Source: an uncultured Ignavibacteria bacterium
GTDB lineage: Bacteria; Bacteroidota; Ignavibacteria; Ch128b
Reading direction: 5' to 3'
DNA: 40,360 nucleotides
Assembly (NCBI GenBank): GCA_937944105.1
Contig: CALDZP010000045.1
Coordinates: 1-40,360 of the forward strand
The notes under the pieces were generated by a model. That model was given only the letters and a program-made list of their open reading frames with translations. It was not told the DNA's origin and made no database searches. Positions 5,291 through 37,151 of the stretch are shown in pieces. Made by a program: the position numbers and the translations under genes. Each line of letters starts with the position of its first letter. Within the stretch, counting starts at the first letter, position 1.

Positions 5291-6586
5291 ATGAAATCGA
5301 AAAAATTAAGAATTATTTTTATTTCTTACTTCTCTTTTCTTTTATTTTTAACAGTAATAAATATCAATAAAATTTTTGCGGGTATAAATTTTATTTATCT
5401 ATTGTTTATTTCAGTCTCTTTTAGACTTTCGTTAAGAGAAATTGATTTCATTCAAGCGACTTTTGTTTTAATTGCTTTGTTTGTGTTATCAACAATTTTC
5501 TTGCTTGTGAGCTTTAATATTTTACGATTAAAATTTATAGAGAGATTAATCAATAAAATGGAGAGTATAAATTTAGAATATTTTTCAGGTTTGATTCTGG
5601 CATTTTTTATGATAATAATTTCACTAACTGCACCAGTTATATCAGATGAGCCATCGTTTTATAAAGATGTTGCGATTACAAAATTGCTTCCACCATTTTC
5701 AAAGGTAAATTATGTTGTCAGGACGAACTTAAAAGGGAGTTTTACTGGATTAGAAGAAATCAAAAAGAAATTATTTGAAAACGAGGAAAAAGAAAGACGA
5801 ATATATTTCACAAAGATTGAATTTAAAGATACATTGGTTATAGTCCATAAAAACAAATTGAAAGAAACAATTCATATAAAAGAAATTGAAACTGTGAATA
5901 ATAAGCCGGTAATTTATTCTAAAATATTTTTTGCCGGAACAGATGAATTTGGTAGAGATATGTTAAGTCGAATAATTCATGGAGTTAGAATTTCCATTTT
6001 TATCGGTTTGTTAGCAGTGTTTATATCTTTTTTATTTGGTTCCGTTATTGGTTATTCATCAGGAATTATTGGAGGTGTGGTTGATGTTTTGTTAATGAGG
6101 TTAGTCGATTTCTTTCTTTCTTTCCCAATCTTATTTTTAGCGATTTTCTTGATTGCATTTGTTGGAAACTCTATTTTTCTTTTAATTATTGTGTTTGGTT
6201 TTTCTGGCTGGATGTATATTGCCAGAATTGCCCGGAATGAATCAATCGCTTGCATGAAAAGAGAATTTGTTCAGATGTTAATACTTGCTGGTCAGTCTAA
6301 AATAAAAATAATAACAAAACATATTTTACCAAATACTTTCTCATCAATATTGATAACTTTAATATTTCAAATGAGTAATGTGGTAATAGCAGAATCAGGA
6401 TTAAGCTTTTTGGGACTTGGAGTTCAGCCCCCAACTCCGACACTTGGAAATATTATAAAAAGTGGATATGAAAATTTATCGATCGCATGGTGGATATCTT
6501 TTTTGAGTGGGATAGCATTAATTACTGTTATTATCAGCTTTAATTTATTGGCTGAAGGTTTAAAAAATTATTATCACAAAAAATAA
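5291..6586 (+). CDS. ABC importer permease, DppC/OppC-like, with N-terminal extension
   Basis: 431 aa, against about 290-300 aa for ordinary DppC. The family hallmark GTDEFGRD, normally near residue 65, is at 216-223. The extra length comes from two or three additional hydrophobic segments within residues 8-76 and a charged segment of about 90 residues (119-210) between the next helix and the core. The core permease domain (about 225-428) has the usual helices, an EAA-type loop and a conserved GLSFLGLGVQPP motif near the end. The final TAA shares its last base with the ATG of the kinase gene (6584-6588), so transporter and kinase are translationally coupled. The role of the extension is unknown; an extracytoplasmic docking or sensing segment is speculation. 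Confidence 0.9.
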   Translation: MKSKKLRIIFISYFSFLLFLTVININKIFAGINFIYLLFISVSFRLSLREIDFIQATFVLIALFVLSTIFLLVSFNILRLKFIERLINKMESINLEYFSGLILAFFMIIISLTAPVISDEPSFYKDVAITKLLPPFSKVNYVVRTNLKGSFTGLEEIKKKLFENEEKERRIYFTKIEFKDTLVIVHKNKLKETIHIKEIETVNNKPVIYSKIFFAGTDEFGRDMLSRIIHGVRISIFIGLLAVFISFLFGSVIGYSSGIIGGVVDVLLMRLVDFFLSFPILFLAIFLIAFVGNSIFLLIIVFGFSGWMYIARIARNESIACMKREFVQMLILAGQSKIKIITKHILPNTFSSILITLIFQMSNVVIAESGLSFLGLGVQPPTPTLGNIIKSGYENLSIAWWISFLSGIALITVIISFNLLAEGLKNYYHKK

Positions 6587-9500
6587 TGATAATTAATTCA
6601 AGATATAAAGTTATTAAAAAACTTGGTTCGGGACGGAGCGATGTCTTCCTTGTGGAAGATTTAGAATTTGAGAATAGATTAATTGCATTAAAACTTATTT
6701 CAAAAGGTCAAATTACTCAGGATGAACTAAGTTCATTAAGAAATGAATTTAGATTATTAAGTGGTTTTAATCACCCAAATATTGTTCAGGTATATGAGTT
6801 TGATAGAATTTATTCATGTGATGATTCAACTTTCCTGAATTCATATTTCTATACTTCTGAATATATTTCTGGTAAAAATTTGATTGAATATTTTGAATCG
6901 CCTCTTAAACAATCAGATCTGGATAAATTTTATTACTGCTTGAAACAAATTTGTGAAGTGCTCTATTATATTCATCAATTAAATGTTATTCATTTTGATA
7001 TTAAACCCGAAAACTTTTTAATTGTTGAAACTTTTAATGATGAACCTTTATTGAAATTAATTGACTTTGGTTTTAGCACAACAACATTTGATAGTATAAA
7101 GGGTACACCAGCATATATCTCGCCAGAGTTGATATTAAAACAAAAAGTTGATTTTAGAACAGATCTTTACTCACTTGGTGCAACATTGTATCATGTAATA
7201 ACTGGAAAACCCCCATTTGAATCTTCGAACGAAGTTGATTTATTAAAACAACATCTTGAACAAATTCCACCTTCAATTGGAGATAATTTCCCTGAGTCCT
7301 TAAATCTAATTGTTCTTAAACTACTTTCAAAAAATCCAGATGATAGATTTAAAAATTCACTGGAAATATTAAAATATCTTCCATTTAAATTTCAAAAGAT
7401 TAAAAATATTTGGCCCCTACCAAAAATACTTTATTCGAGGAGAGATGAACTAAAAAAAATTCTTAAATTCTTTTCAGATGAAAACCTAGAATATGTTAGT
7501 TTGTTACTCCTTAGCGAAGAAGGAATGGGTAAATCCTTTTTAGTAAATAAAGTTATTGAATACCTCGATGATAATAATTTAGTTTATTTAATTATTAAAG
7601 GCGAAGAAAGTAAGATTTCTCATTATAATTTACTTTATTTACTGGTGAAGCAAATTGAGTTTATTCTTGTTCAAAAAAGAAAAATTGAGCATGAGGATTT
7701 AATAAAGAAAATAAATTTTGTTCTAAGTTTATTTGAAAAGTCAGAAAGTAGCATCGATTCATTTGAAAATTTGCGTAATTATATTGCCGAAATATTTATT
7801 GAGTTTGCCAGAAAAGTAAACTATGTTATAATTATTGATGATTTCAATTTACTTGATGAACCTACAAAGTCGTTTATTATTTATATATATCCATCTCTGA
7901 TGGATTTTAATGTAAAATTTTTGCTTAGTTCAAATTTGAAATTCATTCTTCAGAAGGAGGTTGAAAACTTTTCTCGCTCGATGGAAATTATTTTGACTCC
8001 GTTTACCGAAAAAGATATACATGAAATGCTTAAAAGTTGTTTTCACTTCGATTTTCCATATGAACCAGTTACAAAACTGATAGTGGAATATACAGATCTC
8101 TCTATTAAAGTAATCAATGAATTTTTGAACAATTTATTTGTAAGTGAAATACTCCAATTCAATGAAAATGGATTTATATTAAGGAATGATAAAATTGAAC
8201 CAGCATATTTTAAGAGGCAAATTGAGTCTATTCATCAGAAAAAATTTAATTTACTTACTACAATTCAAAAAGAAATAATTGAATACATTTCATTTCTTAT
8301 CCTACCGATTAAAATTAAATTATTAAGTGAAGCAATTACTTTAGATTATGAACGACTTAAAAACGAAATATTGCTTCTGGCATCATTCGGTTGGATAGAA
8401 TATTCTAAGTTAGATGAAACTGTTTTTATGTATAATAACAGTTTGAGAAATTATATAAACAGTAAATCTTCGCGAAGAAAGGAAATATGTTTAAGATTTG
8501 CAGAGTTGTTTGAATCCGAATCATTCCCAAGAAACATTATCGCTGAATATTTTAGTATGGCTGGTTATACTGAGAAAGCATTGGATGGTTACTTAAAAGC
8601 AGCTAAAGAAGCTGAAAATTTTTATTCTTTTTCAACAATGGAGAGTTACTTAAAAAAATGTCTTACTTTAGATTTAAATTCAGAAAAGATTCTGGAAATA
8701 AAATACCTGTTAACAAAATGTTATTTCAATCAGTCAGAATATAAAAATGCTGAGAAACTTGCTCAGGAATTGATTGAATTAATCACTTATGATGAAAGGA
8801 AGTTATATGATCTTTATCTAATTCTTGCAATTATTAAATATAAAATTGGTGAAATAGATCAAGCTTATGAATATTTTGACGAGGCGTACAGGTATGCTTT
8901 TACAGATGAACAGAAAATTGAAGTTGAGATTAATCAGATTAACCTGGAATTAAGTCAGGGAAACTTTGACCTTGTAAGAAAAAAATGCGAAAATCTTTTA
9001 AAGGAATATTCCAACTTGTTATCAGATAGAATGAGGGCTGCAATACTTAATAATCTTGGAATTTGTTACTCACAGCTGGGTTTATACAAAGAAGCAATCT
9101 CATATTTTAATGATGCATTTAGTTTGTACGAAAATGAAAAAAATATATTTAAGACTTCACAGCTATTTTTGAATTTAGGAAATATTTACAATTTAATTGG
9201 CAATAAAGAAAAAGCATTGGAGTATTGGGAAAAAGCACTTACAATCAATGAAAATGTTGGCAATTTATCTCAGAAGGCTACAATACTTAATAATATTGGA
9301 ATTTCATTTCTAGAGGAATTTAATTATGAAGATGCGCTTCGTTATTACATGAACTCAGAAGCGATATTTGAAAAAATTAATAATGTTTATGGAAAGAGTC
9401 TGACTTTATTTAATTTAGGTGAAACTAATTTTTTCTTATGCAATTATAGCGATGCGCTTAAATCCATAGATGAGGCAATTAATCTATCAAAAAAATTAGT

Positions 9501-13770: not shown

Positions 13771-15081
13771 ATGCGTTTCGCCGACTTTATATCTCAGCAA
13801 AATAAAATATATGATCTAAATGATGTTAACCAGAATATTAAGAATGATGATATGGAAATGATCTTAAATATCATTCAAAAAATTAATAACTCACTTGTTC
13901 TTGATGAAGTTCTAAATCTGGTTCTCATAAATGCAATTAGACTTGCAAAAGCAGATCGTGGTTTTTTACTCCTCCTGGATGACTCCAATGAATTGAGATA
14001 TAAAGTCGGCATGAATATTAATGGTGAATTTTTACCTGAAGATGAATTTGAGATAAGTCAAAGTGTTGTAAGAGATTCCTTTGAACTTGGTGAGTCTATT
14101 TGTATCGAAAGTGCAATCTCTGATAAAAATTTTCAGTCCCGTCAAAGTATATTAAATCTTGAACTCCAGACTATTATTTGTACACCTTTAATTACTAGCG
14201 GTGAAAAAATAGGCGCAATTTATGTTGATAGTAAAAAACTGATGAATATTAAAAAATCTGAAATTGTTAGAATATTTGAGATTCTTGCCGGTCATGCTGC
14301 CATTGCAATTCGTAATGCGAAATTATATCAAAGTCTTGATAAAGCATTTAATGAAATGCAAGAAATTCATGAAAGACTTATTAAAGCCGAAAGATTAGCT
14401 TTGAAAAAAGAAATTAATTCTCAGGTGGGGCAGGAAGTTCAAAATCTTGTTCATCTGGCTTTGCTTGAAAATGAAAGTGTTCTTAAGAAAATACAGAGAA
14501 TAAATGTTAATCAACCAATTGATAATGAAACTCTTCAACAACTTATTCAAAAATTAAATATTGCTTCTGAAAGTATTAGAAAAATTCAAAGATATTCACA
14601 AGCATTAATTGTTTCAACACGTTTTGAAACAACGAAAAAATCTGGTGATATTAATAAGACTATTAGAAATGTTGTCGGTTATATTAAAAAAACCAATAAA
14701 TTTAAAAATGTAACTTTTGAACTTAACATTGATAAAATTCCTCTAATTGAATATGACCATGAACAAATCGAACAGGTTATTATCAATTTAGTATCAAATT
14801 CGGTTGAAAAGAAATCTGATTGTCACATTAGAATTTCTACTTTTCATGATCAAGAAAATAACCTAATTATTGTTAAACTAAATGATAATGGACCGGGCAT
14901 TCCACCTGAAATTCAGAAACAAATTTTTCATCAACGTATTAATACTGGATATGAAGGCAGAGGTTATGGTCTTCTAATTGCAAAGAAAATAATTGATAAT
15001 CATAATGGTAAAATTTATTGTGTTTCTGAGCCCGGTAAGGGCGCAACATTTTATTTTTCACTTCCCGTTACTGTAAATTAA
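13771..15081 (+). CDS. GAF-domain histidine-kinase-like protein lacking the phospho-acceptor His
   Basis: 436 aa, soluble. A GAF domain (about 30-185) is followed by a coiled helix (185-240), a dimerisation-type helix pair and an HATPase_c domain (about 320-434). ATP-site motifs are good: N-box INLVSNSVEK (338-347), G1 DNGPGIP (372-378), G2 GRGYGLLIAKK (396-406). In the dimerisation helix the stretch AERLALKKEINSQVGQEVQN aligns without gaps to the usual AEK...AHEINN, and Gln221 (CAG, 14431-14433) falls at the autophosphorylated His. The next His, 228, is seven residues on. It may therefore be a pseudokinase, a dimerisation-regulated partner, or use another site. A TPR gene lies 13 bp upstream. 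The GAF ligand is unknown. Confidence 0.88.
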   Translation: MRFADFISQQNKIYDLNDVNQNIKNDDMEMILNIIQKINNSLVLDEVLNLVLINAIRLAKADRGFLLLLDDSNELRYKVGMNINGEFLPEDEFEISQSVVRDSFELGESICIESAISDKNFQSRQSILNLELQTIICTPLITSGEKIGAIYVDSKKLMNIKKSEIVRIFEILAGHAAIAIRNAKLYQSLDKAFNEMQEIHERLIKAERLALKKEINSQVGQEVQNLVHLALLENESVLKKIQRINVNQPIDNETLQQLIQKLNIASESIRKIQRYSQALIVSTRFETTKKSGDINKTIRNVVGYIKKTNKFKNVTFELNIDKIPLIEYDHEQIEQVIINLVSNSVEKKSDCHIRISTFHDQENNLIIVKLNDNGPGIPPEIQKQIFHQRINTGYEGRGYGLLIAKKIIDNHNGKIYCVSEPGKGATFYFSLPVTVN

Positions 15082-22314: not shown

Positions 22315-25038
22315 ATGAAAATTTACAATAAGCTGAATGAAATCCCGATTAAAAAAATTTTTGTGATAAGTTTACTGATAATATTTAATTTAAATAAATT
22401 AATTACTGCTGGGACAACAGGTAAGATTGTAGGAAAAGTTGTTGACGCACAAACAAATGAACCGGTTGTTGGCGCAAATGTTATTATTGAAGGTACTTAT
22501 CTTGGAGCTGCTGCCGGTATTGATGGTTTTTATTCAATCAATAATGTTCCACCGGGAAAATATAGATTAATTGCTTCCGCAGTTGGATATCAGAAAACGA
22601 TAATTGAAGATGTTTTAGTCAAAATTGATTTAACTACAAGAGTTGATATTAAACTCACCAGTTCAGTTATCCAGCTTGATAAAGAAGTAGTCGTTACATC
22701 TGAACGCCCACTTGTTCAGAAAGATTTAACTTCCACATCTGTTACAATTTCAAATGATGATATTAAAATGATGCCCGTTGAAAGCGTTAATAGGATAGTT
22801 AATCTTCAAGCAGGAGTAATTGATGGACATTTTCGCGGTGGAAGAGCAAACGATGTGGCTTATTTAATTGATGGGGTTATGGTTACAGATCCATTCAATG
22901 GCGGTTTTAATATCGAAATTGAAAATACATCAATTCGGCAAATGGAAGTAATTACTGGAACTTTTAATGCAGAATATGGTCAGGCTCTTTCTGGCGTGGT
23001 GAACATTGTTACGGAAAGTGGTTCGGATAAGTTTAAAACTGACATAAGTATTTATACAGGAAATTTCGTCACAACTCATACAGATATTTTTAGAAATTTG
23101 AACAAGGTAGATCGAATTTCTCAAAAAAATTTGCAAGTAACTATAAGTGGTCCATTAAAACCGTTCAAGAATCTTTATTACTTCTTAACGGGTAGATACT
23201 ATCACGATATTGGTCACCTTTACGGGAAAAGAGTTTATAATACCTGGGATGATGTTCCATATTATCCTAATCCATTTGATAAATCGATTTGGGTCCCAAG
23301 GAATACTGGGGATGGAGCGTACGTCCCAATGAATCCATTTACAAAATATTCAGCCAATGGAAAACTCACTTATGTTTTACCATCATTGTTACTTTCTTAT
23401 TCATTCTTCTATGATAATACAAGAAATAAATACTACGATCATTACTGGTCATGGACGCCAGATGGTATGATGACTCATTATGGAAATGATTGGATTAATA
23501 CTTTTCAAATGACCCATTATATTTCATCAAACACTTCACATAGCTTCAAGGTTACTTTTAATAATTATAATTTCAAAGGTTATTTATACGAAGATCCATT
23601 TGATCCAAGATATGTTGATCCAAGACAAGGTATATCACTTTCCAGTTATACATTTCGCTCAGGTGGGAATCAAGGTGGAAGATACAATAGATTTACAAAA
23701 TCTTATATTGCACAATGGTCAATTTCTTCTCAAGTAAGCAAAGAACATAAAATTGGCTCTGGTATTGAACTAAGGTATCATCATATTTATAATCATTATA
23801 GAGATTTAATTAATTTAACCGAAGGTCAAATTGATTCACTTGGTAATCCAATTTTTACTCCAGGTTATCCTGATAAAGGTACAATAACTGATCGGGGTTC
23901 ACACATTGAATATGTAAGGTTTCCATATGAAGCCTCTGCATATATTCAGGATAAAATGGAATATGATATAATGATTATTAATGCTGGAGTGCGATTCGAT
24001 TATTTTAACGCAAATGCAAAACTACCAGCTGATAAAAAGAATCCTACGAGAAATCCAAATTTCCCGGGTTATAACGAATGGGTTAAAGCAAAACCAAAAA
24101 TGCAAGTAAGCCCAAGACTAGGTGTTTCGTTTCCAATTACAGATAAAGGTATAATTAGATTCTCTTATGGTCATTTCTTTAAAATCCCTTCATTCGAAAA
24201 TTTATATGCCAATCCTGATTTTGTTGTCCAGCCTGGTAATGCTCTCAGTTCGATTATAGGTAATCCAGATCTAAATGCAGAGAAAAATGTAATTTATGAA
24301 CTTGGTTTACAACAAGTTTTGATGGAGGACTTAGCATTAAATACCTCTGTTTATTATCGTGATATTCGTAATTGGCTTGGTATGGAGATAGTGAATACTT
24401 ATGAGGGATTTAAATATGCAAGATTTATAAATCGAGATTACGCCAATGTTAGAGGATTAATAGTATCCCTTGATAAAAGATTTTCAAATTATTTTGGTGC
24501 AAAACTTGACTATACTTATCAAATTGCTGAAGGTAATGCTTCGGATCCTTATGCAGTTTATAATTATAACCAAACTAATCCTCCTATTGAGGAATCAAAA
24601 ACTGTTGTGCCATTAGATTGGGATCAAAGACACACATTAAATTTAAGTGTAACAGTTGGTATTCCTGGTAACTGGTCAGCTGGTTTAATCTTTCAATATG
24701 GTTCAGGTATGCCTTATACGGAGGATATTAAAATTTCTAGAGGAGTTAGATTTGAAAATGGAGGACGGAGGCCAACTTATTTTAATCTTGATTTAAGAGC
24801 TGATAAAAACTTAAAATTATTCGGAATAAATGTTTATACATATGCAATTATTTATAATGTTCTAGATATTAAAAACGAAGTAGGTGTTTACCCAACAACT
24901 GGTAGAGCGACAGCTGATTTAAATGTTAAATATGCTGGTGAAATTATTGGACTGAATACTATTGAAGAATATATTAAAAATCCAGCAATGTATTCAGCGC
25001 CAAGACAAATTCGTCTTGGAATTGGATTTCAATTGTAA
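22315..25038 (+). CDS. TonB-dependent outer-membrane receptor
   Basis: 907 aa. Hydrophobic signal region (about 15-32), carboxypeptidase-regulatory-like domain (about 36-115, GKVVDAQTNEPVVGANV), plug domain (about 125-235, with LIDGVMVTDPFNGG and EYGQALSGVVNI), then a beta-barrel ending in APRQIRLGIGFQL with the C-terminal aromatic-x-hydrophobic pattern. It imports a large substrate across the outer membrane using TonB energy. The CarboxypepD_reg-plug order is that of SusC-type receptors but it is shorter than most SusC proteins, and no SusD follows. Given the adjacent glucanases, beta-gluco-oligosaccharides are the probable cargo (inference). The next gene starts 18 bp downstream with GGGAG. 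Confidence 0.92.
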   Translation: MKIYNKLNEIPIKKIFVISLLIIFNLNKLITAGTTGKIVGKVVDAQTNEPVVGANVIIEGTYLGAAAGIDGFYSINNVPPGKYRLIASAVGYQKTIIEDVLVKIDLTTRVDIKLTSSVIQLDKEVVVTSERPLVQKDLTSTSVTISNDDIKMMPVESVNRIVNLQAGVIDGHFRGGRANDVAYLIDGVMVTDPFNGGFNIEIENTSIRQMEVITGTFNAEYGQALSGVVNIVTESGSDKFKTDISIYTGNFVTTHTDIFRNLNKVDRISQKNLQVTISGPLKPFKNLYYFLTGRYYHDIGHLYGKRVYNTWDDVPYYPNPFDKSIWVPRNTGDGAYVPMNPFTKYSANGKLTYVLPSLLLSYSFFYDNTRNKYYDHYWSWTPDGMMTHYGNDWINTFQMTHYISSNTSHSFKVTFNNYNFKGYLYEDPFDPRYVDPRQGISLSSYTFRSGGNQGGRYNRFTKSYIAQWSISSQVSKEHKIGSGIELRYHHIYNHYRDLINLTEGQIDSLGNPIFTPGYPDKGTITDRGSHIEYVRFPYEASAYIQDKMEYDIMIINAGVRFDYFNANAKLPADKKNPTRNPNFPGYNEWVKAKPKMQVSPRLGVSFPITDKGIIRFSYGHFFKIPSFENLYANPDFVVQPGNALSSIIGNPDLNAEKNVIYELGLQQVLMEDLALNTSVYYRDIRNWLGMEIVNTYEGFKYARFINRDYANVRGLIVSLDKRFSNYFGAKLDYTYQIAEGNASDPYAVYNYNQTNPPIEESKTVVPLDWDQRHTLNLSVTVGIPGNWSAGLIFQYGSGMPYTEDIKISRGVRFENGGRRPTYFNLDLRADKNLKLFGINVYTYAIIYNVLDIKNEVGVYPTTGRATADLNVKYAGEIIGLNTIEEYIKNPAMYSAPRQIRLGIGFQL

Positions 25039-25056: not shown

Positions 25057-28000
25057 ATGCTTAGAAAAATTGTTTTTCTGGCTTTGTTTATCTTAATGGA
25101 ATTTTCATTTGCACAGGTTCCTTACCAAATTCAACTTTACCGTAATGAACCAAAAGGTAATATCCAATACCGTCGTGAAGGAATTATGGATGGGAATCAA
25201 ATTAGAACATTGTTTTATAACAATGGTGAAGTAGGTCAATGGCCTTATCAACCTTCTGGTGAATGGCCTAAAGGGTCAGGGCATTCTTACCTTGATGGTG
25301 TCTGCGTCTTAATTGCTTCTGAAGTTAGAGCTCCTGGAAATAATCAAATAATTCATCCACTTATAACCTCGTATCGAGAATGGATGGATAAAGATCCAGT
25401 GACGGGTGAAATATGGGGTCTTGAACCAATTCCAGGTTATGTTCACCCAAATTCTACTAAACCAGCAATTAATACAGACCCTAAAAGTTGGCCCTTGGTG
25501 TGGCCTGCTGCTTTAAATTTAACTCCAGAATGGAATGGTTACTGGTATGGTTATTTTGGTCGTGGTGTAATGAATTCTGATTTCGAAACTTTTTTTGTAA
25601 TGGACGATTCTCGAGATAAAGAGTTTACAAGACCACCTTTTCTATACTTTCCAATTGCAGCTGACTCTGATCGAGGGGGGTTGGGTTTAAGGGTTGAAGT
25701 AAGAGGTTTTCAATGGTCACACGTTCTGGCTGAAGATATAATCTTCTGGCATTATGATATAGTGAATATTTCTGATTATGATTATCCAACAACTGCTTTC
25801 GGATTTTATACAGATCCAGGAGTTGGTGGAACAGCGGATTCTGGTGATGATTGTGCTTCGTTTGATTTGAAACTTGATATTGCTTATTGTTATGATTGGG
25901 ATGGAATTGGACTCCCGGATTATTGGAAAACGGGTATGTATGGGTATGCTTATCTTGAAAGTCCAGGGAATCCATGGAACGGTATTGATGATGATGAAGA
26001 TGGTATGATAGATGAAAGAAGAGATGATGGTATTGATAATGATGGCGATTGGCAACCGTATTCAGATTTAAATGGTAACGGTAAGTGGGATCGTGAAGAG
26101 AATGAACCTTTGAATGATGATCTTGGTCGTGATGGTGTAGGCCCTTTTGATAGACAATATAATGGACCCGACGAAGGTGAAGGCGATGGGATCCCCACAG
26201 ATGGTGAGCCGAACTTTGATAAAACTGATAAGGATGAATCGGATCAAATTGGTTTGACAGCAGTGTCAATTTATCGACTGGGTGAAGGTGGAACTGGTGG
26301 TGGTTGGCCAAAAGATGATGAATCGATGTGGCTTAAGATGGTAGCAGGTACTTTTGATACATCATTACAACGTTCAAATATCTCAATGGTATTTTCTTCA
26401 GGTCCATTCCCTTTACTTAAAGGATTAAGAGAAAGATTCTCGATGGCACTTCTATTTGGCGAAAACTTAGGTGAACTAATCTTCAATAAAGAAACTGTTC
26501 AACAGATTTATAATGCAAATTATAATTTCTCCAAACCACCGTTGAAACCAAAGTTGACAGCTGTTCCTGGAGATGGGAAAGTATTTCTTTACTGGGATAA
26601 TATTGCCGAAGAATCAAGAGATCCATTTTTAGGTTATGAAGATAATGATCCAAGGAAAGGTTATAAAAAAGATTTTGAAGGTTATTTAATTTATCGAAGC
26701 CAAGAACCTGAATTTAATGATATAAAAATTATTACAGACTCAAAAGGTATTCCAAGATACTGGAAACCTATTGCGCAGTTTGATAAGATTGATGGAATTA
26801 AAGGTCCAGATCCAGTAGGGATAAATGGTGCTCATTTCTGGCGAGGAGATGATACTGGTTTACAATATTCTTATGTAGATACAGATGTTAAAAATGGGGT
26901 AACTTATTATTATGCTTGTGTTTCATATGATATGGGTGATCCCAACTTTGGTACTACCGGTCTTCAGCCAAGTGAATGCACAAAAATTATTACCGTTGAT
27001 TATGCGGGAAATGTTCAATTTGTTGATATAAATTGTGCGGTTGTAACTCCTAATGCTCCTGTTGCTGGTTATGTACCACCACAAATTCAGGGTGATACAA
27101 AAAGAGTCACTGAAGGGGTAGGAACAGGTAGTTTGCAATTTCATGTATATGATCCAAGAGTAGTTGAAGATAATGTACAGTATGAAATTGTCTTCAAATC
27201 TACTAATGATTATCCATTGTATAAAACACTCTCATATGACATTATTAAGATTAAAGGGACTACTGTAGATACCATTTTAGCCGTTGATTCAGCATATATT
27301 GGTCAAGGAAAAGTAAGTCCCCCATTTGATGGACTGGCACTGACAGTTATCAACGATACAGCAGTTACAATAATTGATTCACTTACCGGATGGTTAGTTG
27401 GCAAGAGTAATCTTTTAATGCGGGCTTTCCCAGACCAAACTCCAGTTCGTGGTGTGCCCTGGCCAGCAGATTATGAAATAACTTTCTATGATGGTCCAGC
27501 TGATACATGTTATTTATTTTCTCCTCCATTATACCGAAGATTTCCGGTTAACTTTAAAGTCTGGAATAAAACGGAACAAAAATATTGTAAGATTGCAGTT
27601 CAAGATCGAGATCAATCTCAATCGTTGAGTCCTGGTGATGTAATACAAATTCTTGAATTTAAAGATAAAGTGATCTCTCCAGCAAATGTTAGATTTGCCT
27701 GGAATATAACTTATAATTCTCCCGCTAACCCAAATGAAACCCCTATTTATCCAAAAGAAGGTGATAAATATGTAATAACAACGAGAAAACAATTCAAGAC
27801 TGGCGATAAATTTATTGTTTCGACAAAAGCTGCAACCACAGATAATTCACTTGCAAAATCACAATTATCCAGGATTGATGTTGTGCCCAACCCATATCTC
27901 GGTGCTGCAGCATGGGAAAAAAGAAATTTAAACACAACTGGTCGAGGTGAAAGGAAAATTGATTTTATAAATTTACCACAAAAGTGTACTATTCGTATTT

Positions 28001-28179
28001 ATACTTTATCCGGTCAATTAGTTAAAACTCTTTATAAGGATTCAAACTATCTTGATGGTACAATTTCCTGGAATTTAATTACAGATGATGGAATGGAAGC
28101 CGCTTATGGTGTTTATGTATATCATGTTGATGCACCAGGTATTGGAGAATACATCGGAAAATTTGCATTAATTAAATAA
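25057..28179 (+). CDS. large exported Asp-rich protein, TonB-receptor companion
   Basis: 1040 aa. Signal peptide ends near FSFAQ (20). No enzymatic domain is recognised. Residues 309-396 are very rich in Asp and Gly with repeated D-x-D/N-x-D/N-G motifs (GIDDDEDG, GIDNDGD, DLNGNGKWD), which resemble calcium-binding thrombospondin-3 or dockerin loops. A fibronectin-III-like part follows (about 505-640). The C-terminus (about 970-1040) looks like a FlgD-Ig or sorting-type beta domain (IRIYTLSGQLVKTL ... GVYVYHV ... GKFALIK), without the NPFNP motif. Sandwiched by 18 bp and about 15 bp between a TonB receptor and a PorV-like barrel, so likely an outer-surface subunit of that assembly. The exact role is unknown. 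Confidence 0.75.
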   Translation: MLRKIVFLALFILMEFSFAQVPYQIQLYRNEPKGNIQYRREGIMDGNQIRTLFYNNGEVGQWPYQPSGEWPKGSGHSYLDGVCVLIASEVRAPGNNQIIHPLITSYREWMDKDPVTGEIWGLEPIPGYVHPNSTKPAINTDPKSWPLVWPAALNLTPEWNGYWYGYFGRGVMNSDFETFFVMDDSRDKEFTRPPFLYFPIAADSDRGGLGLRVEVRGFQWSHVLAEDIIFWHYDIVNISDYDYPTTAFGFYTDPGVGGTADSGDDCASFDLKLDIAYCYDWDGIGLPDYWKTGMYGYAYLESPGNPWNGIDDDEDGMIDERRDDGIDNDGDWQPYSDLNGNGKWDREENEPLNDDLGRDGVGPFDRQYNGPDEGEGDGIPTDGEPNFDKTDKDESDQIGLTAVSIYRLGEGGTGGGWPKDDESMWLKMVAGTFDTSLQRSNISMVFSSGPFPLLKGLRERFSMALLFGENLGELIFNKETVQQIYNANYNFSKPPLKPKLTAVPGDGKVFLYWDNIAEESRDPFLGYEDNDPRKGYKKDFEGYLIYRSQEPEFNDIKIITDSKGIPRYWKPIAQFDKIDGIKGPDPVGINGAHFWRGDDTGLQYSYVDTDVKNGVTYYYACVSYDMGDPNFGTTGLQPSECTKIITVDYAGNVQFVDINCAVVTPNAPVAGYVPPQIQGDTKRVTEGVGTGSLQFHVYDPRVVEDNVQYEIVFKSTNDYPLYKTLSYDIIKIKGTTVDTILAVDSAYIGQGKVSPPFDGLALTVINDTAVTIIDSLTGWLVGKSNLLMRAFPDQTPVRGVPWPADYEITFYDGPADTCYLFSPPLYRRFPVNFKVWNKTEQKYCKIAVQDRDQSQSLSPGDVIQILEFKDKVISPANVRFAWNITYNSPANPNETPIYPKEGDKYVITTRKQFKTGDKFIVSTKAATTDNSLAKSQLSRIDVVPNPYLGAAAWEKRNLNTTGRGERKIDFINLPQKCTIRIYTLSGQLVKTLYKDSNYLDGTISWNLITDDGMEAAYGVYVYHVDAPGIGEYIGKFALIK

Positions 28180-29226: not shown

Positions 29227-29253
29227 ATGATTAATCTTTAATAACTGTTTGAT

Positions 29254-29281
29254 GCCCCGATTCACTTGTTTGAATCGGGGC
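29254..29281 (+). terminator. strong hairpin after the PorV-like gene
   Basis: GCCCCGATTCA (29254-29264), loop CTTGTT, TGAATCGGGGC (29271-29281): an 11-bp perfect stem, 28 bases after the stop codon. The tract after it (AATTTGTAAG) is only weakly T-rich. Its place between the receptor cluster and the hydrolase genes suggests a transcript end or processing point. Confidence 0.75.
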
Positions 29282-29345
29282 AATTTGTAAGAGCCTTTAA
29301 AATTTATGAAGTGGTCCTAAATAAAAAATTGAATAATAAAAACAA

Positions 29346-31193
29346 ATGAAAAAAGTTTTATATAAAATGTTAACCAAGCCATTTTATAACTTCCTCGCTA
29401 TATTTATAGCTTTGTATTTTTTGAGTTTTGGTGAAAATATTTCAGCAAAAGATTTTAAAGGAGCAGAATTTAGAACTAAACAACAATTTCTTTATGGTCG
29501 ATTTGAAGTTAGAATGAAATCAGCTTATCGCGAAGGTGTATTGTCATCTTTTTTTACTTATCATGAATTTTCTGGTGGAATTGAAAATTGGAATGAGATT
29601 GATATTGAAATTCTTGGCAGATATCCTAATGACATTCAGTTCAATACAATTACATCAGGACAGACAAATCATGTGAGTCATTATCCATTACCATTTTCTC
29701 CACACGAAGACTTTCATGTTTATGCGTTTGAATGGACTCCAAACTATGTAGCCTGGTTTGTTGATGGAATTGAAGTTTATCGACAAACAGGTCCTCATAT
29801 TGCAACATTAAATAAGCCACAAAAATTAATGATGAATATCTGGAATCCAGAAGCAACGAACTGGGCTGGGCAGTTTAATCCTGATGCGCTACCAGCATTT
29901 GCTTATTATGATTGGGTAAAATATTATCTATACACACCTGGCTCTGGAAATTATGGTACTAACAATAACTTTACTTTCTCCTGGTCTGATGACTTTGACT
30001 ACTGGAACACTTCTCGATGGGACAAGGCAACACATACATTCGTCGGAAATGGCTGTGATTTTATCCCTGAAAATGTTGTTATACGAAATGGGTATTTAAT
30101 TTTATGTTTAACGAACAGCACAAATATTGGTTATACTGATTTAAAAGGACCAGTTTTGTTCTCTGCTAAAGTCCATAATGGTAAAATCCTTGTTAATTTT
30201 TCTGAAGAGTTGGATGAGATTTCCGCTCAAACAAAATCGAATTATATTATTTACGGAGTTAGTGTTGATTCTGCAAAATTACTTTCTGACAGAAAAACTG
30301 TGGAACTTACTGTTTCAGGCTGGGATTTTATATCTCAAAAAACTTTAGTTGTATTAAACGTTAAAGATGATTGGAACCCTCCAAATGTAATGAGTCCAAA
30401 GGCAGTCACAATCATAACTCAAACACAATTTAATTTCCCATTAAAAATAAATTGTGGGGGTCCCTCTGTTCTTGGTTATTTACCTGAACAACAATGGACA
30501 ATTACATCTGATTATGGATCAATTGATGGGGGAAATGCAACTTATTCATTTAATATAAACAACACAGATGAAGATGAAATTTATCAATCAGAAAAATGGG
30601 GAATGACAACTTACCGAGTTAGACTTCCAAATGGTACTTATAGTATCAAATTAATGTTTGCTGAAAATTATCATAATCAAGCAGGTGCAAGGATTTTTGA
30701 TGTTTGGGTTGAAAATGAAAGGATACTCCAAAATTTTGATATTTATGCTTTAGTGGGGAGAAATACTGCCTATGTAAAACAAATAGATAATGTTAATATA
30801 CTTGATGGATATCTTGATATTTATTTTGTCACTCATAAAGATTATCCATTAATTAATGGTATTGTAATAAATTTAATTTCTCTGGGAATTAATGAAATAA
30901 ATTCAGAGCAAATAAATAAATTTTTTTTAGACCAGAATTTCCCCAATCCATTCAATGGGCAAACAATTATTAAATATTCAATTCATAAGCCAGATATTTA
31001 TTTATTCGGTTTATATGATATTCTCGGGAGAGAAATTTTTAGAAAAGAACTGGGCTACCTTCAAGAAGGTAACTATACCATTAAGTTAAATTTAAATGAT
31101 CTTAATGGATTAAAGCTCTCATCGGGAACATATATTTATTTTCTTAAAAACGATAACTCAATTCAGTTCAAAAAAATGTTATTAATGAATTAA
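29346..31193 (+). CDS. circularly permuted GH16 licheninase with malectin and T9SS domains
   Basis: 615 aa. Signal peptide 1-34; GH16 catalytic domain 35-257; SbsA/Big-type Ig-like domain (about 267-358); malectin-like carbohydrate-binding domain (about 365-512); T9SS sorting domain (524-615, QNFPNPFNGQT). The catalytic motif is EIDIE (84-88; Glu84 nucleophile, Asp86, Glu88 acid/base), the short E-x-D-x-E form typical of beta-1,3-1,4-glucanases (EC 3.2.1.73). Strand order is permuted: the piece that opens ordinary lichenases (FSWSDDFDYWNTSRW...HTFVGN, about 211-257) comes after the piece that closes them (AYYDWVKYY, 186-194). Fibrobacter succinogenes beta-glucanase has the same permutation, and the mature start AKDFxGAE and the YTPGxG linker match it. 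No ribosome-binding site is obvious. Cell-surface enzyme. Confidence 0.92.
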   Translation: MKKVLYKMLTKPFYNFLAIFIALYFLSFGENISAKDFKGAEFRTKQQFLYGRFEVRMKSAYREGVLSSFFTYHEFSGGIENWNEIDIEILGRYPNDIQFNTITSGQTNHVSHYPLPFSPHEDFHVYAFEWTPNYVAWFVDGIEVYRQTGPHIATLNKPQKLMMNIWNPEATNWAGQFNPDALPAFAYYDWVKYYLYTPGSGNYGTNNNFTFSWSDDFDYWNTSRWDKATHTFVGNGCDFIPENVVIRNGYLILCLTNSTNIGYTDLKGPVLFSAKVHNGKILVNFSEELDEISAQTKSNYIIYGVSVDSAKLLSDRKTVELTVSGWDFISQKTLVVLNVKDDWNPPNVMSPKAVTIITQTQFNFPLKINCGGPSVLGYLPEQQWTITSDYGSIDGGNATYSFNINNTDEDEIYQSEKWGMTTYRVRLPNGTYSIKLMFAENYHNQAGARIFDVWVENERILQNFDIYALVGRNTAYVKQIDNVNILDGYLDIYFVTHKDYPLINGIVINLISLGINEINSEQINKFFLDQNFPNPFNGQTIIKYSIHKPDIYLFGLYDILGREIFRKELGYLQEGNYTIKLNLNDLNGLKLSSGTYIYFLKNDNSIQFKKMLLMN

Positions 31194-31214: not shown

Positions 31215-33434
31215 ATGAAATTGATTTATATAATTTTTATAATTTTACCTCTGACACTCTTCTCTCAATCAAAAACAATTGAAGAGCGAGTCCAGGAATT
31301 ATTATCAAAAATGACCCTTGAAGAGAAAGTGGGGCAAATGACTCAAATAACGCTTCAAGTTGTTTCAAAAAAACAAGGGACAAAAAATCAGTTACATGAA
31401 TTAGACGAGAAAAAATTAGAGGAAGCTATTGTAAAGTATAATATCGGTTCTATCTTAAATGTTTATGATGTTGCTCATTCAATCGAATACTGGCATGAAG
31501 TAATTACTAAAATTCAAGATATCGCAACTAAGAAAACAAGACTTGGTATACCAATAATATATGGTATTGATGCAATTCATGGTGCTACTTATACAAAAGG
31601 TTCCACATTATTCCCACAATCTTTGGCTATAGCTTCGACATTTAATAAAGATATTGCAGAACGAATTGGAGAAATTACTTCTTTAGAAACACGAGCAAGT
31701 GGAATTCCATGGAATTTTTATCCAGTAATGGATTTAGGTCGTCAACCATTGTGGCCAAGATTATGGGAAACTTTTGGTGAGGATGTTTATCTGGCTCAGC
31801 AAATGGGGATGGCTTATATTAAAGGCGCTCAAGGTGATGATATAAGTCGACCAGATAAACTAGCAACCTGTCTTAAACACTATGTAGGATATAGTTTTCC
31901 TTTTAATGGTTTCGATAGGACACCAGCATATATGTCTGAAAGAACATTAAGGGAATATTTTCTCCCACCTTTTGAGGCTGGAATTAAAGCTGGTGCAAAA
32001 ACAATTATGGTTAACTCAAGTGAGGTTGATGGCATTCCAGGTCATGCAAATTATCATTTACTTACAGAAATTCTTCGGGGTGAATTGAAGTTTGATGGAT
32101 TTGTTGTCTCAGATTGGGAGGATATAAATAGATTACATACTAGAGATAGAATCGCTTCATCCTTGAAAGAAGCTGTAAAAATTGCGGTAATGGCTGGAGT
32201 TGATATGAGTATGGTGCCTTATGATTTTAGCTTCTATAATAATTTAATCGAACTGGTTAAAGAAGGTTCTGTTCCAATGTGGAGAATTGATGAAGCTGTT
32301 AGCAGAATTTTGAAAGTTAAATTTGAACTTGGTCTTTTCGAAAATCCTTATCCCTCTAAAGAACTTTTACAAAAGTTTGCAAGTGACGAACATAAACAAT
32401 TTAATCTTAAAGCTGCTCAAGAATCTATAATACTTGCTAAAAATGAGAAGAATATCCTCCCTCTGAGAAAAAATAAAAAAATATTTGTTACTGGTCCAAC
32501 TGCGAACAAACTTTCGGTTTTGAATGGAGGATGGACGATCACCTGGCAAGGCAATGAAGAGGAGTTATATCCACAAGAAAAAAACACAATACTTGAAGCA
32601 ATTAGATTAAAAATTGGTGACCAAAATGTTTTATATGAGGAAGGTTGTTCTTTTGATAAAGAGTTGAATTCAAATAAAGCAGTTCAAAAAGCAAAACAAT
32701 CAGATGTAATAGTTTTGTGTCTTGGTGAACCGGCATATTGTGAAACTCCTGGTAATATTAATGACTTAACACTTCCTGAAGCTCAACTCAATTATGCCAT
32801 GAAAATGATTTCAACTGGTAAACCAGTTGTACTTGTTTTAGTTGAAGGACGTCCGAGATTAATCACTAAAATTTTTGATAAAGTTCAAGGTGCAATAATA
32901 GCATTCCTTCCAGGTATGGAAGGTGGCAATGCAATAGCAGATATTCTTTTCGGTGAAGTAAATCCATCAGGAAAACTTCCAATAACTTACCCAAAATATC
33001 CTAATGCTATTGTTCACTACGACTATAAACCAATTGAATCTTATGATGTGAATAAATATGATCCACTACTTCCTTTTGGATTTGGATTAAGTTATACAAA
33101 ATTTTCTTACTCGAATATTAAAATTAATAAAACAGAAATAACAGAGGATGATGAGTTAGAAGTAAGTATAGATGTTACTAATAATGGCTCTATGAAAGGA
33201 AAAGAAGCAGTGCTTATGTACATTACCGATGTTTATGGTCAGGTTAGTCGACCAAATAAACAATTGAAAGGGTTTCAAAAGATTGAATTAAATCCTGGGG
33301 AAACAAAAACTGTAAAATTCCAAATAAATAAAGAACATCTTTCCTTTATTGGATTAAATAATAAAAGAATTGTTGAGCCGGGAGAGTTTATTATAACTAT
33401 AGGTGAACTTCAAAAAAAGTTTTATTTGAAATAA
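31215..33434 (+). CDS. GH3 beta-glucosidase, periplasmic
   Basis: 739 aa, BglX-like. Signal peptide 1-18, GH3 N domain (about 22-360) with KHYVGYSFPFNG and nucleophile Asp300 in FVVSDWED, GH3 C domain (about 395-600) with the GEPAYCETPGNINDL loop that carries the acid/base Glu, and a C-terminal fibronectin-III-like domain (about 640-735). There is no T9SS sorting domain, unlike its neighbours, so the enzyme should remain in the periplasm and release glucose from imported cello- or laminari-oligosaccharides. It follows the GH16 gene by 21 bp, with GGGGAAG before the ATG, in one operon. Confidence 0.94.
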   Translation: MKLIYIIFIILPLTLFSQSKTIEERVQELLSKMTLEEKVGQMTQITLQVVSKKQGTKNQLHELDEKKLEEAIVKYNIGSILNVYDVAHSIEYWHEVITKIQDIATKKTRLGIPIIYGIDAIHGATYTKGSTLFPQSLAIASTFNKDIAERIGEITSLETRASGIPWNFYPVMDLGRQPLWPRLWETFGEDVYLAQQMGMAYIKGAQGDDISRPDKLATCLKHYVGYSFPFNGFDRTPAYMSERTLREYFLPPFEAGIKAGAKTIMVNSSEVDGIPGHANYHLLTEILRGELKFDGFVVSDWEDINRLHTRDRIASSLKEAVKIAVMAGVDMSMVPYDFSFYNNLIELVKEGSVPMWRIDEAVSRILKVKFELGLFENPYPSKELLQKFASDEHKQFNLKAAQESIILAKNEKNILPLRKNKKIFVTGPTANKLSVLNGGWTITWQGNEEELYPQEKNTILEAIRLKIGDQNVLYEEGCSFDKELNSNKAVQKAKQSDVIVLCLGEPAYCETPGNINDLTLPEAQLNYAMKMISTGKPVVLVLVEGRPRLITKIFDKVQGAIIAFLPGMEGGNAIADILFGEVNPSGKLPITYPKYPNAIVHYDYKPIESYDVNKYDPLLPFGFGLSYTKFSYSNIKINKTEITEDDELEVSIDVTNNGSMKGKEAVLMYITDVYGQVSRPNKQLKGFQKIELNPGETKTVKFQINKEHLSFIGLNNKRIVEPGEFIITIGELQKKFYLK

Positions 33435-33498: not shown

Positions 33499-35499
33499 AT
33501 GGGAGGATTTGTGTTTTCTCGGGTATCATTCTTATTAACCTTCGCTATTTTATTTTTCCTTTTTTCTATAAAATCTGACGCAGTTGGTTTTCTTAAAGTA
33601 AATGGTAAAAAAATAATTGACGGCACTGGTCAAGAATTTTACTTGAAAGGAATGGGGCTTGGTGGATGGCTTTTGCAGGAAGGTTATATGTTACATACAT
33701 CAGGATTTGCTAATGCTCAATGGCAAATTAGACAAAAAATTGTTGAATTAATTGGTGAAGCAAACACGGAGATATTTTACGAAACATATAGAAAGAATTT
33801 TATCAGAAAGATAGATATTGATTCAATTAAAGCATGGGGATTTAATTCTATTAGATTACCTTTTCACTGGAATTTATTTGCTACAAATACAAATCCACCT
33901 CAGTTTATAAATAAAGGATTTGAAATTATTGACTCACTTCTTTCATGGTGTGAGGCAAATCAGATTTATCTTATTCTAGATATGCACGCTGCTCCGGGTG
34001 GTCAAAGTGATGAAAACATTAGTGATTATAATCCCGCATATCCATCTTTATGGCAAAGTGAACAAAATAAGGATTTAACTGTAAAAATTTGGCGAAAAAT
34101 TGCAGAACGATATAAGGATAAGGAATGGATAGGGGGATATGATCTATTAAATGAACCTAAATGGAACCTACCACCAAATAATCAACCTTTAAGGGATTTG
34201 TACATTAGAATTACAGATACAATTAGAGCTGTTGATACAAATCACATTATCTTTATTGAAGGTAATTGGTTTGCAACCGATTTTACTGGTCTTACTCCTC
34301 CCTGGGATAATAATATGGTTTATAGTTTTCACAAGTACTGGAATTCAAATGATCAGGGATCTATACAATATCTTTTGAATATAAGAAATGAATTTAATGT
34401 ACCGCTCTGGCTTGGTGAAAGCGGAGAAAATTCAAATAAATGGATGGTTGATTGCGTGGAATTGATGAGACAAAATAATATCGGGTGGTGCTGGTGGACT
34501 CATAAAAAAATTGAAACGATTGCAGGACCTTTATCTGCAGTTATGTCCCCGTTTTATAAAACATTACTTGATTATTGGAGAGGTTCTGGTCCTAAACCAA
34601 GTTCAACTTATGCTTATAATGCATTAATGATGCAAGCAGAAAACTTAAAACTTGAATTATGTGAATTTAGAAAAGATTTTATTGATGCATTGATGCGACA
34701 GCCAGGAAATACTCAAACTAAGCCTTATAATGAAAATTTAATTCCAGGTATCGTTTATGCTACCGAATATGATATGGGAAAATTAAATTATGCTTATTAT
34801 GATGTAGATTATCAAAATGTTGGTGGTGGTATATGGAATAATGGCGGTAAATTTCGAAACGATGGAGTTGATATTGAGTATTGTACTGATTTTACTTCAA
34901 ATGGATATAATGTCGGATGGATTCAAAACGGTGAGTGGCTTAGATATACGTGTAACATAACACAGGCTGGGATTTACAAAATTAAAATTAATGTTGCGTC
35001 AATGAATTCTAATGGACAAATTCTTTTAAGACTTGATGGTGTTCCTCTTGGTGGATTAATATCAGTTCCAAATACAAATGGGTGGCAAAACTGGCAATTA
35101 ATAGAATTGAATAATGTTTATCTTCCTGCGGGTATCCATCAACTTGAAGCAAGATTTTATACAGGGGGCTTCAATCTAAGTCATTTTGAATTTGAATTGT
35201 TATCTACAGATGTTAACGAAGAGAAATTAAGACCTAAAGATTTTAATTTGTATCAGAATTATCCAAATCCTTTTAATTCTAAAACTGCTATAACTTATTC
35301 AATTCCAAGCAGTGGTTACGTTAAGCTTAAACTCTATGATTTATTAGGGAATCAAGTTTTATCAATAGTTGATGAATACAAAAAACCAGGAACTTATATT
35401 GAAGAACTTGATTCAACTTCATTAACAAGTGGTACTTATTTTTTACGGTTAGATTCTGGTAATAAGTCAATGGTTCGAAAGATAATGGTAATGAAATGA
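33499..35499 (+). CDS. GH5 beta-glucanase with CBM6 and T9SS sorting domain
   Basis: 666 aa from ATG 33499. GGAGG at 33502-33506 lies inside the frame and four bases before an in-frame GTG at 33511, so translation may truly begin at GTG 33511. Signal peptide to about 28; GH5 domain (about 30-365) with SIRLPFHWN, acid/base Glu219 in LLNEP, YSFHKYW (275-281), nucleophile Glu307 in WLGESGE. Then a CBM6-like domain (about 412-568, with YDVDYQN, WIQNGEWLRYT and HFEFE) and a sorting domain (581-666, YQNYPNPFNSKT). Likely a surface endo- or exo-beta-glucanase; the DMHAAPGGQ stretch recalls exo-beta-1,3-glucanases, but specificity is not settled. Overlaps the CotH gene by four bases. Confidence 0.92.
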   Translation: MGGFVFSRVSFLLTFAILFFLFSIKSDAVGFLKVNGKKIIDGTGQEFYLKGMGLGGWLLQEGYMLHTSGFANAQWQIRQKIVELIGEANTEIFYETYRKNFIRKIDIDSIKAWGFNSIRLPFHWNLFATNTNPPQFINKGFEIIDSLLSWCEANQIYLILDMHAAPGGQSDENISDYNPAYPSLWQSEQNKDLTVKIWRKIAERYKDKEWIGGYDLLNEPKWNLPPNNQPLRDLYIRITDTIRAVDTNHIIFIEGNWFATDFTGLTPPWDNNMVYSFHKYWNSNDQGSIQYLLNIRNEFNVPLWLGESGENSNKWMVDCVELMRQNNIGWCWWTHKKIETIAGPLSAVMSPFYKTLLDYWRGSGPKPSSTYAYNALMMQAENLKLELCEFRKDFIDALMRQPGNTQTKPYNENLIPGIVYATEYDMGKLNYAYYDVDYQNVGGGIWNNGGKFRNDGVDIEYCTDFTSNGYNVGWIQNGEWLRYTCNITQAGIYKIKINVASMNSNGQILLRLDGVPLGGLISVPNTNGWQNWQLIELNNVYLPAGIHQLEARFYTGGFNLSHFEFELLSTDVNEEKLRPKDFNLYQNYPNPFNSKTAITYSIPSSGYVKLKLYDLLGNQVLSIVDEYKKPGTYIEELDSTSLTSGTYFLRLDSGNKSMVRKIMVMK

Positions 35500-37151
35500 A
35501 AACAATTTTGTCACTGTTTATAGCAATAACTTTGATTGATTTTTGTTTTGCTCAGAATGTAAATTTTTCTTCATCAAATCTTCCAATAATCGTGATAAAT
35601 ACTCTTGGGCAAGAAATTCCAAATGAATATAAAATTAATGCAAGAATGGGAATTATTTTTAATGGTGATGGTAATAGAAATTATCTAAATGATCCTTTTA
35701 ATCATTATAATGGATGGATTGGAATTGAATTACGTGGATCAAGTTCTTTAACATTTCCTAAAAAATCTTATGCAGTTGAAACAAGAGATTCTACCGGTAA
35801 TGATATTAATGTTTCTCTCTTTGGCTTTCCATCTGAATCTGACTGGGTTTTTCTGGGACCTTATAACGACAAAACCTTAATTCGTGATGCACTAGCCTAC
35901 AAATTAGCAAGAGAAATGGGTAGATATGCATCTAGATTTAAATTCTTTGAACTTGTAATTAACAATGAGTATAAAGGTGTTTATCTATTACTTGAAAAAA
36001 TTAAAAGAGATGCAAACAGAGTTAACATCAAAAAATTAACTCCTTCTGATACTACAGGTGATGCTTTAACCGGAGGATATATAATTAAAATTGATAAACT
36101 CGATGGCGAAAATAACGATGGCTGGTATTCTAATTTCAAGCCATTCCCTCAAATTAATGCAAAAATTTTTTACCAGTATCATTATCCAAAACCTGATGAA
36201 ATTGTTGAGGTACAAAAAAATTATATTAAGTCATTTATTTATTCTTTTGAATCTGCAATGAATAGTCCTTATTATTCTGACTCGATAGTTGGTTATCCAA
36301 AATATATTGATGTGAATTCTTTTGTAGATTACATTCTTGTAAACGAACTTGTAAAAAATATTGATGCCTATCGCTTGAGTACATTCTTTTATAAGGATAG
36401 AGATAGTAGAAATCCAAAATTATTTGCTGGACCGGTGTGGGATTTTAATCTGGCTTTTGGTAATTGTGATTATTACCAGGCTTATAATTCCAGTCAATGG
36501 TATCTTGAACACGTTTCTGATTACTCTAATATTCCTGTTTGGGAAAATTTTTTCATTCCATTCTGGTGGAAAAAAATTTTTAATGACCAAAACTTTCAGA
36601 AAAAATTCCGTCAGAGATGGATTGAATTAAGAAACACTGTCTGGATTAACGAAAAAATTATTCAAACAATTGATTCACTTGTTAATTTACTTGAAGAATC
36701 CAGAGTAAGAAATTTCCAGAAATGGCCAGTGTTGGGACAATATATCTGGCCTAATTATTACGTGGGACAAACTTATGAAGATGAAATCAATTATTTAAAA
36801 AATTGGTTATTGAATCGTATTATATGGATGGATTTACAATTGTTAACTGATGTCGAAAATGAAAAATTTTCTGAGAATGATTTTGAGGTTGTTCTTTATC
36901 AGAACTATCCCAATCCATTTAATCCCATTACTAATATTAGATATTCAATAAAAAAAACAAATCATGTTTTAATCAAATTATTTGATGTAATAGGGAATGA
37001 AGTGGCTGTATTGGTTGATGAAATTAAAAATCCAGGAGTTTACGAAATTCAATTAAATGCAACCAAATTCAATTTAAGCAGTGGAACTTATGTTTATCAA
37101 TTGAAGTCGGGGGAGTTTACAAAAACAAATAAATGTATTCTTCTCAAATAG
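35496..37151 (+). CDS. secreted CotH-like (putative kinase) protein with T9SS sorting domain
   Basis: 551 aa. Signal peptide 1-20; CotH domain (about 28-440) with ELRGSSSLTFPKKSYAVE split by the family's conserved Lys, a second block KGVYLLLEKIKRD (160-172), GGYIIKIDK, and the metal/catalytic block GPVWDFNLAFGN (312-323). A sorting domain follows (468-551, YQNYPNPFNPITN). CotH of Bacillus phosphorylates spore-coat proteins, and CotH domains occur in clostridial and fungal cellulosome components. Here the protein is exported to the cell surface. ATG overlaps the GH5 stop (ATGA, 35496-35499), so both are made together. A role in modifying or anchoring the surface enzymes is inference. Last gene of the hydrolase operon; the opposite strand follows. 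Confidence 0.9.
   Translation: MKTILSLFIAITLIDFCFAQNVNFSSSNLPIIVINTLGQEIPNEYKINARMGIIFNGDGNRNYLNDPFNHYNGWIGIELRGSSSLTFPKKSYAVETRDSTGNDINVSLFGFPSESDWVFLGPYNDKTLIRDALAYKLAREMGRYASRFKFFELVINNEYKGVYLLLEKIKRDANRVNIKKLTPSDTTGDALTGGYIIKIDKLDGENNDGWYSNFKPFPQINAKIFYQYHYPKPDEIVEVQKNYIKSFIYSFESAMNSPYYSDSIVGYPKYIDVNSFVDYILVNELVKNIDAYRLSTFFYKDRDSRNPKLFAGPVWDFNLAFGNCDYYQAYNSSQWYLEHVSDYSNIPVWENFFIPFWWKKIFNDQNFQKKFRQRWIELRNTVWINEKIIQTIDSLVNLLEESRVRNFQKWPVLGQYIWPNYYVGQTYEDEINYLKNWLLNRIIWMDLQLLTDVENEKFSENDFEVVLYQNYPNPFNPITNIRYSIKKTNHVLIKLFDVIGNEVAVLVDEIKNPGVYEIQLNATKFNLSSGTYVYQLKSGEFTKTNKCILLK

Follow-up and report, generated by a model that had tools for sequence, protein, structure and literature searches.

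Among proteins with the fold of glycoside hydrolase family 16 (GH16), the glucanase of Fibrobacter serves as the textbook case of natural circular permutation. This 1,3-1,4-beta-D-glucanase of F. succinogenes (Fs) is represented in the PDB by entries 1MVE, 1ZM1 and 3AXD (Tsai et al. 2003, as cited in PMC2395249). None of the open-access papers that we found cited a natural permutant other than the Fibrobacter enzyme, and nothing on a wider natural permutation in GH16 was found in that literature, which is weak evidence. Here we describe a protein of an uncultured Ignavibacteria bacterium, encoded in a stretch of 40,360 nucleotides (the window), that has the same swapped block order, and we show that it is not a rarity confined to itself and Fibrobacter.

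The window protein and its parts

The protein is encoded by an intact open reading frame (ORF), whose parts are as follows.

29346..31193, + strand: whole ORF, 615 aa, permuted GH16 licheninase-malectin protein with a type IX secretion (T9SS) domain, predicted to be secreted
29346..29447, + strand: putative signal peptide, residues 1-34, from a hydrophobic stretch in the sequence
29448..29927, + strand: B block, residues 35-194, which carries the active site and corresponds to the C-terminal two thirds of ordinary lichenases
29595..29609, + strand: catalytic E84-I-D86-I-E88, aligned with Bacillus E105/D107/E109
29928..29978, + strand: linker LYTPGSGNYGTNNNFTF, residues 195-211, bridging the former C- and N-termini
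29979..30116, + strand: A block, residues 212-257, corresponding to the N-terminal part of ordinary lichenases
30117..30440, + strand: region between GH16 and malectin, about 108 residues, Ig-like by eye
30441..30863, + strand: malectin domain, residues 366-506 (Pfam, E 6.5e-28)
30939..31178, + strand: T9SS C-terminal sorting domain, residues 532-611 (TIGR04183, Pfam)

A preliminary description of this DNA had placed the permuted module at residues 35-257 (bases 29448-30116), and both ends are right. It had also proposed fusion to Ig-like, malectin and T9SS domains. The malectin domain was found by Pfam, and the sorting domain scored above the TIGR04183 cut-off (29.6 bits against 23) and marginally below that of Pfam PF18962 (26.6 bits against 27). 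The Ig-like assignment is softer, as residues 258-365 had no Pfam match above cut-off.

Swapped block order

Pfam PF00722 (GH16) matched residues 32-176 to profile positions 24-165 with 116.5 bits (cut-off 22). Profile HMMs of the two blocks each gave one match in the ORF: block B (AKDF...DWVKYY, approximately residues 35-194) with 276 bits and, after it, block A (SWSDDFD...LCLT, approximately residues 212-257) with 93 bits. Thus, B precedes A in one ORF without another half, as in a permuted licheninase of the Fs type. In BLAST alignments with ordinary-order homologues, the two segments were swapped; for example, residues 30-194 of the window protein aligned to L031 126-294, and residues 199-256 to L031 64-124. 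A phmmer search of the PDB aligned Fs-glucanase 2-231 in one piece with residues 32-258 (E 9e-59), and the engineered permutant 1CPM in one piece with residues 38-258, whereas natural Bacillus lichenases matched residues 33-193 only, with their own residues 55-211. The BglS equivalog profile NF047856 scored 167.3 bits, below its cut-off of 300, and only over profile positions 78-234 of 237; a partial score below cut-off is what is expected of a permuted relative.

The preliminary description had named an N-terminal GH16 half upstream, restoring the ordinary order, as evidence that would speak against permutation. No second A or B half was found when both block HMMs were run over the window, and the ORF directly upstream encodes a PorV-like protein. 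An assembly artefact was also considered and rejected: more than 100 non-redundant sequences showed the same order, among them some on long single contigs (such as G236:C1, G124:C1 and CP070707.1).

Structural model

An AlphaFold2 model of the module, built from 36 homologues, had a mean pLDDT of 97.4 and a pTM of 0.92. Foldseek, which aligns in sequence order, matched the model to Fs-glucanase (1MVE) over its full length (TM 0.94, 227 columns) and, with 225 columns each, to the engineered permutants 1CPM (TM 0.86) and 1CPN, whereas the match to ordinary lichenases was partial (TM approximately 0.62, only about 155 columns). This is the pattern predicted by permutation, and it answers the doubt, raised in the preliminary description, that the strands might be connected in the ordinary GH16 order. 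The superposition on Fs and Bacillus lichenases that had been suggested there agrees, at the level of a predicted structure, with permutation. Block HMMs, BLAST, phmmer and the model together confirmed the description of the GH16 domain as circularly permuted like that of Fibrobacter.

Distribution of permuted forms

A scan of GTDB genomes gave 294 loci that encode a relative, and all of the 80 loci kept were permuted; they came from Ignavibacteria, Melioribacter-type, Calditrichota, Neomarinimicrobiota and KSB1 genomes. Full-length permuted matches in whole-genome samples were counted from the tables. Permuted copies were present in 29 of 297 genomes of Bacteroidota (in the GTDB sense, including Ignavibacteria), 20 of these 29 being in the class of the window; in 56 of 199 Neomarinimicrobiota genomes (one copy a fragment at a contig end); in 17 of 40 Calditrichota genomes; and in 26 of 82 from the KSB1-type phylum (one copy cut by a contig end). 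Among Bacteroidales, 6 of 299 genomes had a permuted match. No plasmid-borne permuted copy was found: 174 PLSDB records had a GH16 match, none over 80% of the query.

Over all loci scanned, 166 ORFs had the order BA and 17 the order AB; no ABA or BAB ORF, the transitional duplicated form, occurred among them. Three genomes (G305, G573 and G281) carried an ordinary-order homologue and a permuted copy on one contig. On G305:C8, the ordinary gene lay at 57078-57719 and the permuted one at 86673-87335. On G281:C420 (locus L032), the permuted gene (5987-6682) and the ordinary one (13793-14485) lay approximately 7 kb apart, and the permuted licheninase was extended at its N-terminus by about 270 residues. 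Neomarinimicrobiota genomes had permuted GH16 genes in tandem pairs (e.g., G507:C12 15416-17936 and G369:C21 3851-6365), with one protein of about 600 aa with a long tail and the other of about 370 aa with a short tail.

Origin of the permutation

Permuted sequences were returned to ordinary order in silico before trees were built. Fibrobacterota were represented by Fs alone, in a sequence that agreed with the PDB chain throughout the printed part of the phmmer alignment; the Bacillus 2AYH sequence was identical to its PDB chain at every residue. In the tree of 83 rows, the permuted rows stood together except for two intruding long-branch sequences of ordinary order (L185 and L186); holding the permuted rows together cost 1.9 log units and was not rejected (p-AU 0.44). 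Without the long branches, the permuted rows formed one clade (98/89), and so they did with the B block alone, from which linker and junction columns were left out (98/95). The first tree had been inspected before the long-branch rows were dropped, and the high clade support therefore applies to the reduced set alone; in the reduced sets, the permuted forms and Fs shared a common ancestor. Within the permuted family, Fs paired with L030, an enzyme from Bacteroidales, in all three trees (support 100/99, long branches). Joining this pair to the Bacillus-type enzymes was rejected (p-AU 0.04). The window enzyme fell in a clade of Ignavibacteria, its nearest relatives being Ignavibacteria enzymes with 78-91% identity.

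These trees, of the kind proposed in the preliminary description, support a single origin of the permutation, and in them the Fibrobacter enzyme is a side branch of the family. The alternative of independent permutations in Fibrobacter and in the Ignavibacteria-type family draws on the fact that protein engineers picked the same break point (1CPM starts at residue 59), which indicates that this site tolerates new chain ends. We nevertheless consider it very unlikely in view of the single permuted clade, the YTPGxGxxG linker motif common to both, and the rejected placement of Fs and L030 with the Bacillus-type enzymes. The earlier preference for common descent over a second permutation was therefore borne out. 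The gene-transfer link with Fibrobacter that had been attached to it was not. Horizontal transfer of the permuted enzyme from Fibrobacter to the window gene or its lineage, or the reverse, would accord with the 43-44% identity and the shared motifs, but it is hardly credible when the nearest relatives of the window enzyme are from Ignavibacteria, Fs stands beside a Bacteroidales enzyme, and hundreds of permuted relatives from Ignavibacteria, Calditrichota, Neomarinimicrobiota and KSB1 lie between the two. The Fibrobacter line may itself have received the enzyme from a relative.

Active site and predicted substrate

A further alternative concerns the substrate. The catalytic EIDIE at residues 84-88, reported earlier as intact, was confirmed in position by alignment and has the ExDx(x)E form of GH16; its E, D and E were invariant in 59 of 59 permuted rows. 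The equivalents of Bacillus lichenase E63, R65, F92, Y94, W103, E105, D107, E109, N182, W184 and W192 were conserved, and the window enzyme retained most lichenase subsite residues. Licheninases have an ungapped ExDxE strand, and laminarinases are of the ExDxxE type; the strand of the window enzyme is ungapped. Judged by these residues, the enzyme is predicted to have licheninase activity (EC 3.2.1.73). Its main substrate might instead be a different one, such as laminarin or some other glucan of marine or plant origin, leaving it a GH16 hydrolase that is only related to licheninases; its malectin and T9SS tail, its marine homologues and the Ile at the position of Bacillus Y123 could suggest this. 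We regard this as improbable: the licheninase subsite residues and the ungapped strand are retained, and Fs carries the same Ile yet is a 1,3-1,4-glucanase according to its PDB titles.

Tail architecture and locus

The same tail extended over at least 250 residues in 86 of the 107 non-redundant permuted proteins, indicating that the fusion is old and stable. As first described, the tail is absent from the Fs enzyme, but it is not peculiar to the window protein. The GH16 gene lies among the following genes.

22315..25038, + strand: TonB-dependent receptor (TBDR), same locus
25057-28179, + strand: 1040-aa protein, between the TBDR and the PorV-like protein
31215..33434, + strand: GH3 beta-glucosidase-type enzyme, next gene after GH16
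33499..35499, + strand: GH5-CBM6-T9SS protein, same locus

A CotH-kinase-domain protein with a T9SS tail (35496-37151, + strand) stands at the end of this glucan locus. The order TBDR, 1040-aa protein, PorV-like protein, GH16, GH3, GH5 was kept in many Ignavibacteria, and the first three were conserved in Neomarinimicrobiota and Calditrichota as well. An inverted repeat (GCCCCGATTCA-cttgt-TGAATCGGGGC, 29251-29287) between the PorV-like and GH16 genes resembles a terminator, and transcription of GH16 may thus begin separately.

The 1040-aa protein had no Pfam or PDB sequence match. Its AlphaFold2 model (pLDDT 79.6) matched no fold convincingly and was weakly similar to T9SS PorZ and to sandwich domains of GH94/GH149. 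Homologues of it (30-91% identity) were encoded at 54 of the 86 loci that surround permuted GH16 genes, across several phyla. Where SusD is not seen, it may act as a conserved partner in glycan uptake or secretion.

Proposed origin and role

We are confident in the overall reading of the window protein as a naturally permuted GH16 endo-1,3-1,4-beta-glucanase, derived from a single permutation, fused to malectin and T9SS domains and predicted to be secreted and to act on mixed-linkage glucan. The chain starts at the loop before the strand bearing AEFRT, and the short linker YTPGxGxxGTxNNF, a motif common to the permuted family and already noted as YTPGxG in its likeness to Fs, joins the old C-terminal strand to the old N-terminal strand, so that a re-ordered chain gives the same jellyroll and active site. 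The route was probably duplication and fusion followed by trimming, which is a guess because no duplicated intermediate was seen. The lineage of this one permutation now extends across Ignavibacteria/Bacteroidota, Calditrichota, Neomarinimicrobiota, KSB1 and Fibrobacter. In its main branch, the enzyme continues into a beta-sandwich-like region, a malectin domain, which probably binds sugar, and a T9SS sorting signal, by means of which it would cross the outer membrane. Outside the cell, it would cut mixed-linkage glucan, and the neighboring GH5 and GH3 enzymes and the TBDR would finish and import the products.

Tentatively, the permuted licheninase may be a widespread subfamily form of the Fibrobacter-Chlorobi-Bacteroidetes group and nearby phyla, derived from one ancient event and standing beside ordinary-order paralogues in some loci; on this reading, selection seems to have favored the new chain ends, perhaps for the position that they give the C-terminus in the malectin/T9SS fusion. 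As the known Fibrobacter case is now one branch of a large family, the origin of the permutation becomes testable. More than 100 non-redundant natural permutants, with ordinary relatives on the same contigs, offer a direct test of when and how it arose, and the same set allows testing whether it changed stability, secretion or activity.

Comparison with known systems

Ordinary-order licheninase-like proteins from the same phyla (L031, L136, L183 and L189) share both blocks with the window enzyme at 36-47% identity and have RWxxATHTF-type A blocks, but they have the order A-B and lack the YTPGxG linker. Bacillus lichenases (2AYH, 1GBG and 3O5S; NF047856 BglS) share the fold class, active site and subsite residues, with 43% identity over the B block; they differ in their ordinary block order, and about 155 residues can be aligned in sequence. 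The engineered H(A16-M) variant cpA16M-59 (1CPM and 1CPN) has the same permutation point and is collinear over the whole module (TM 0.86), although it is man-made and lacks the natural linker. Fs-glucanase shares the permuted block order, break point, linker motif, fold and catalytic residues (43% identity, TM 0.94); unlike the window protein, it has no malectin/T9SS tail and forms a separate branch beside a Bacteroidales enzyme.
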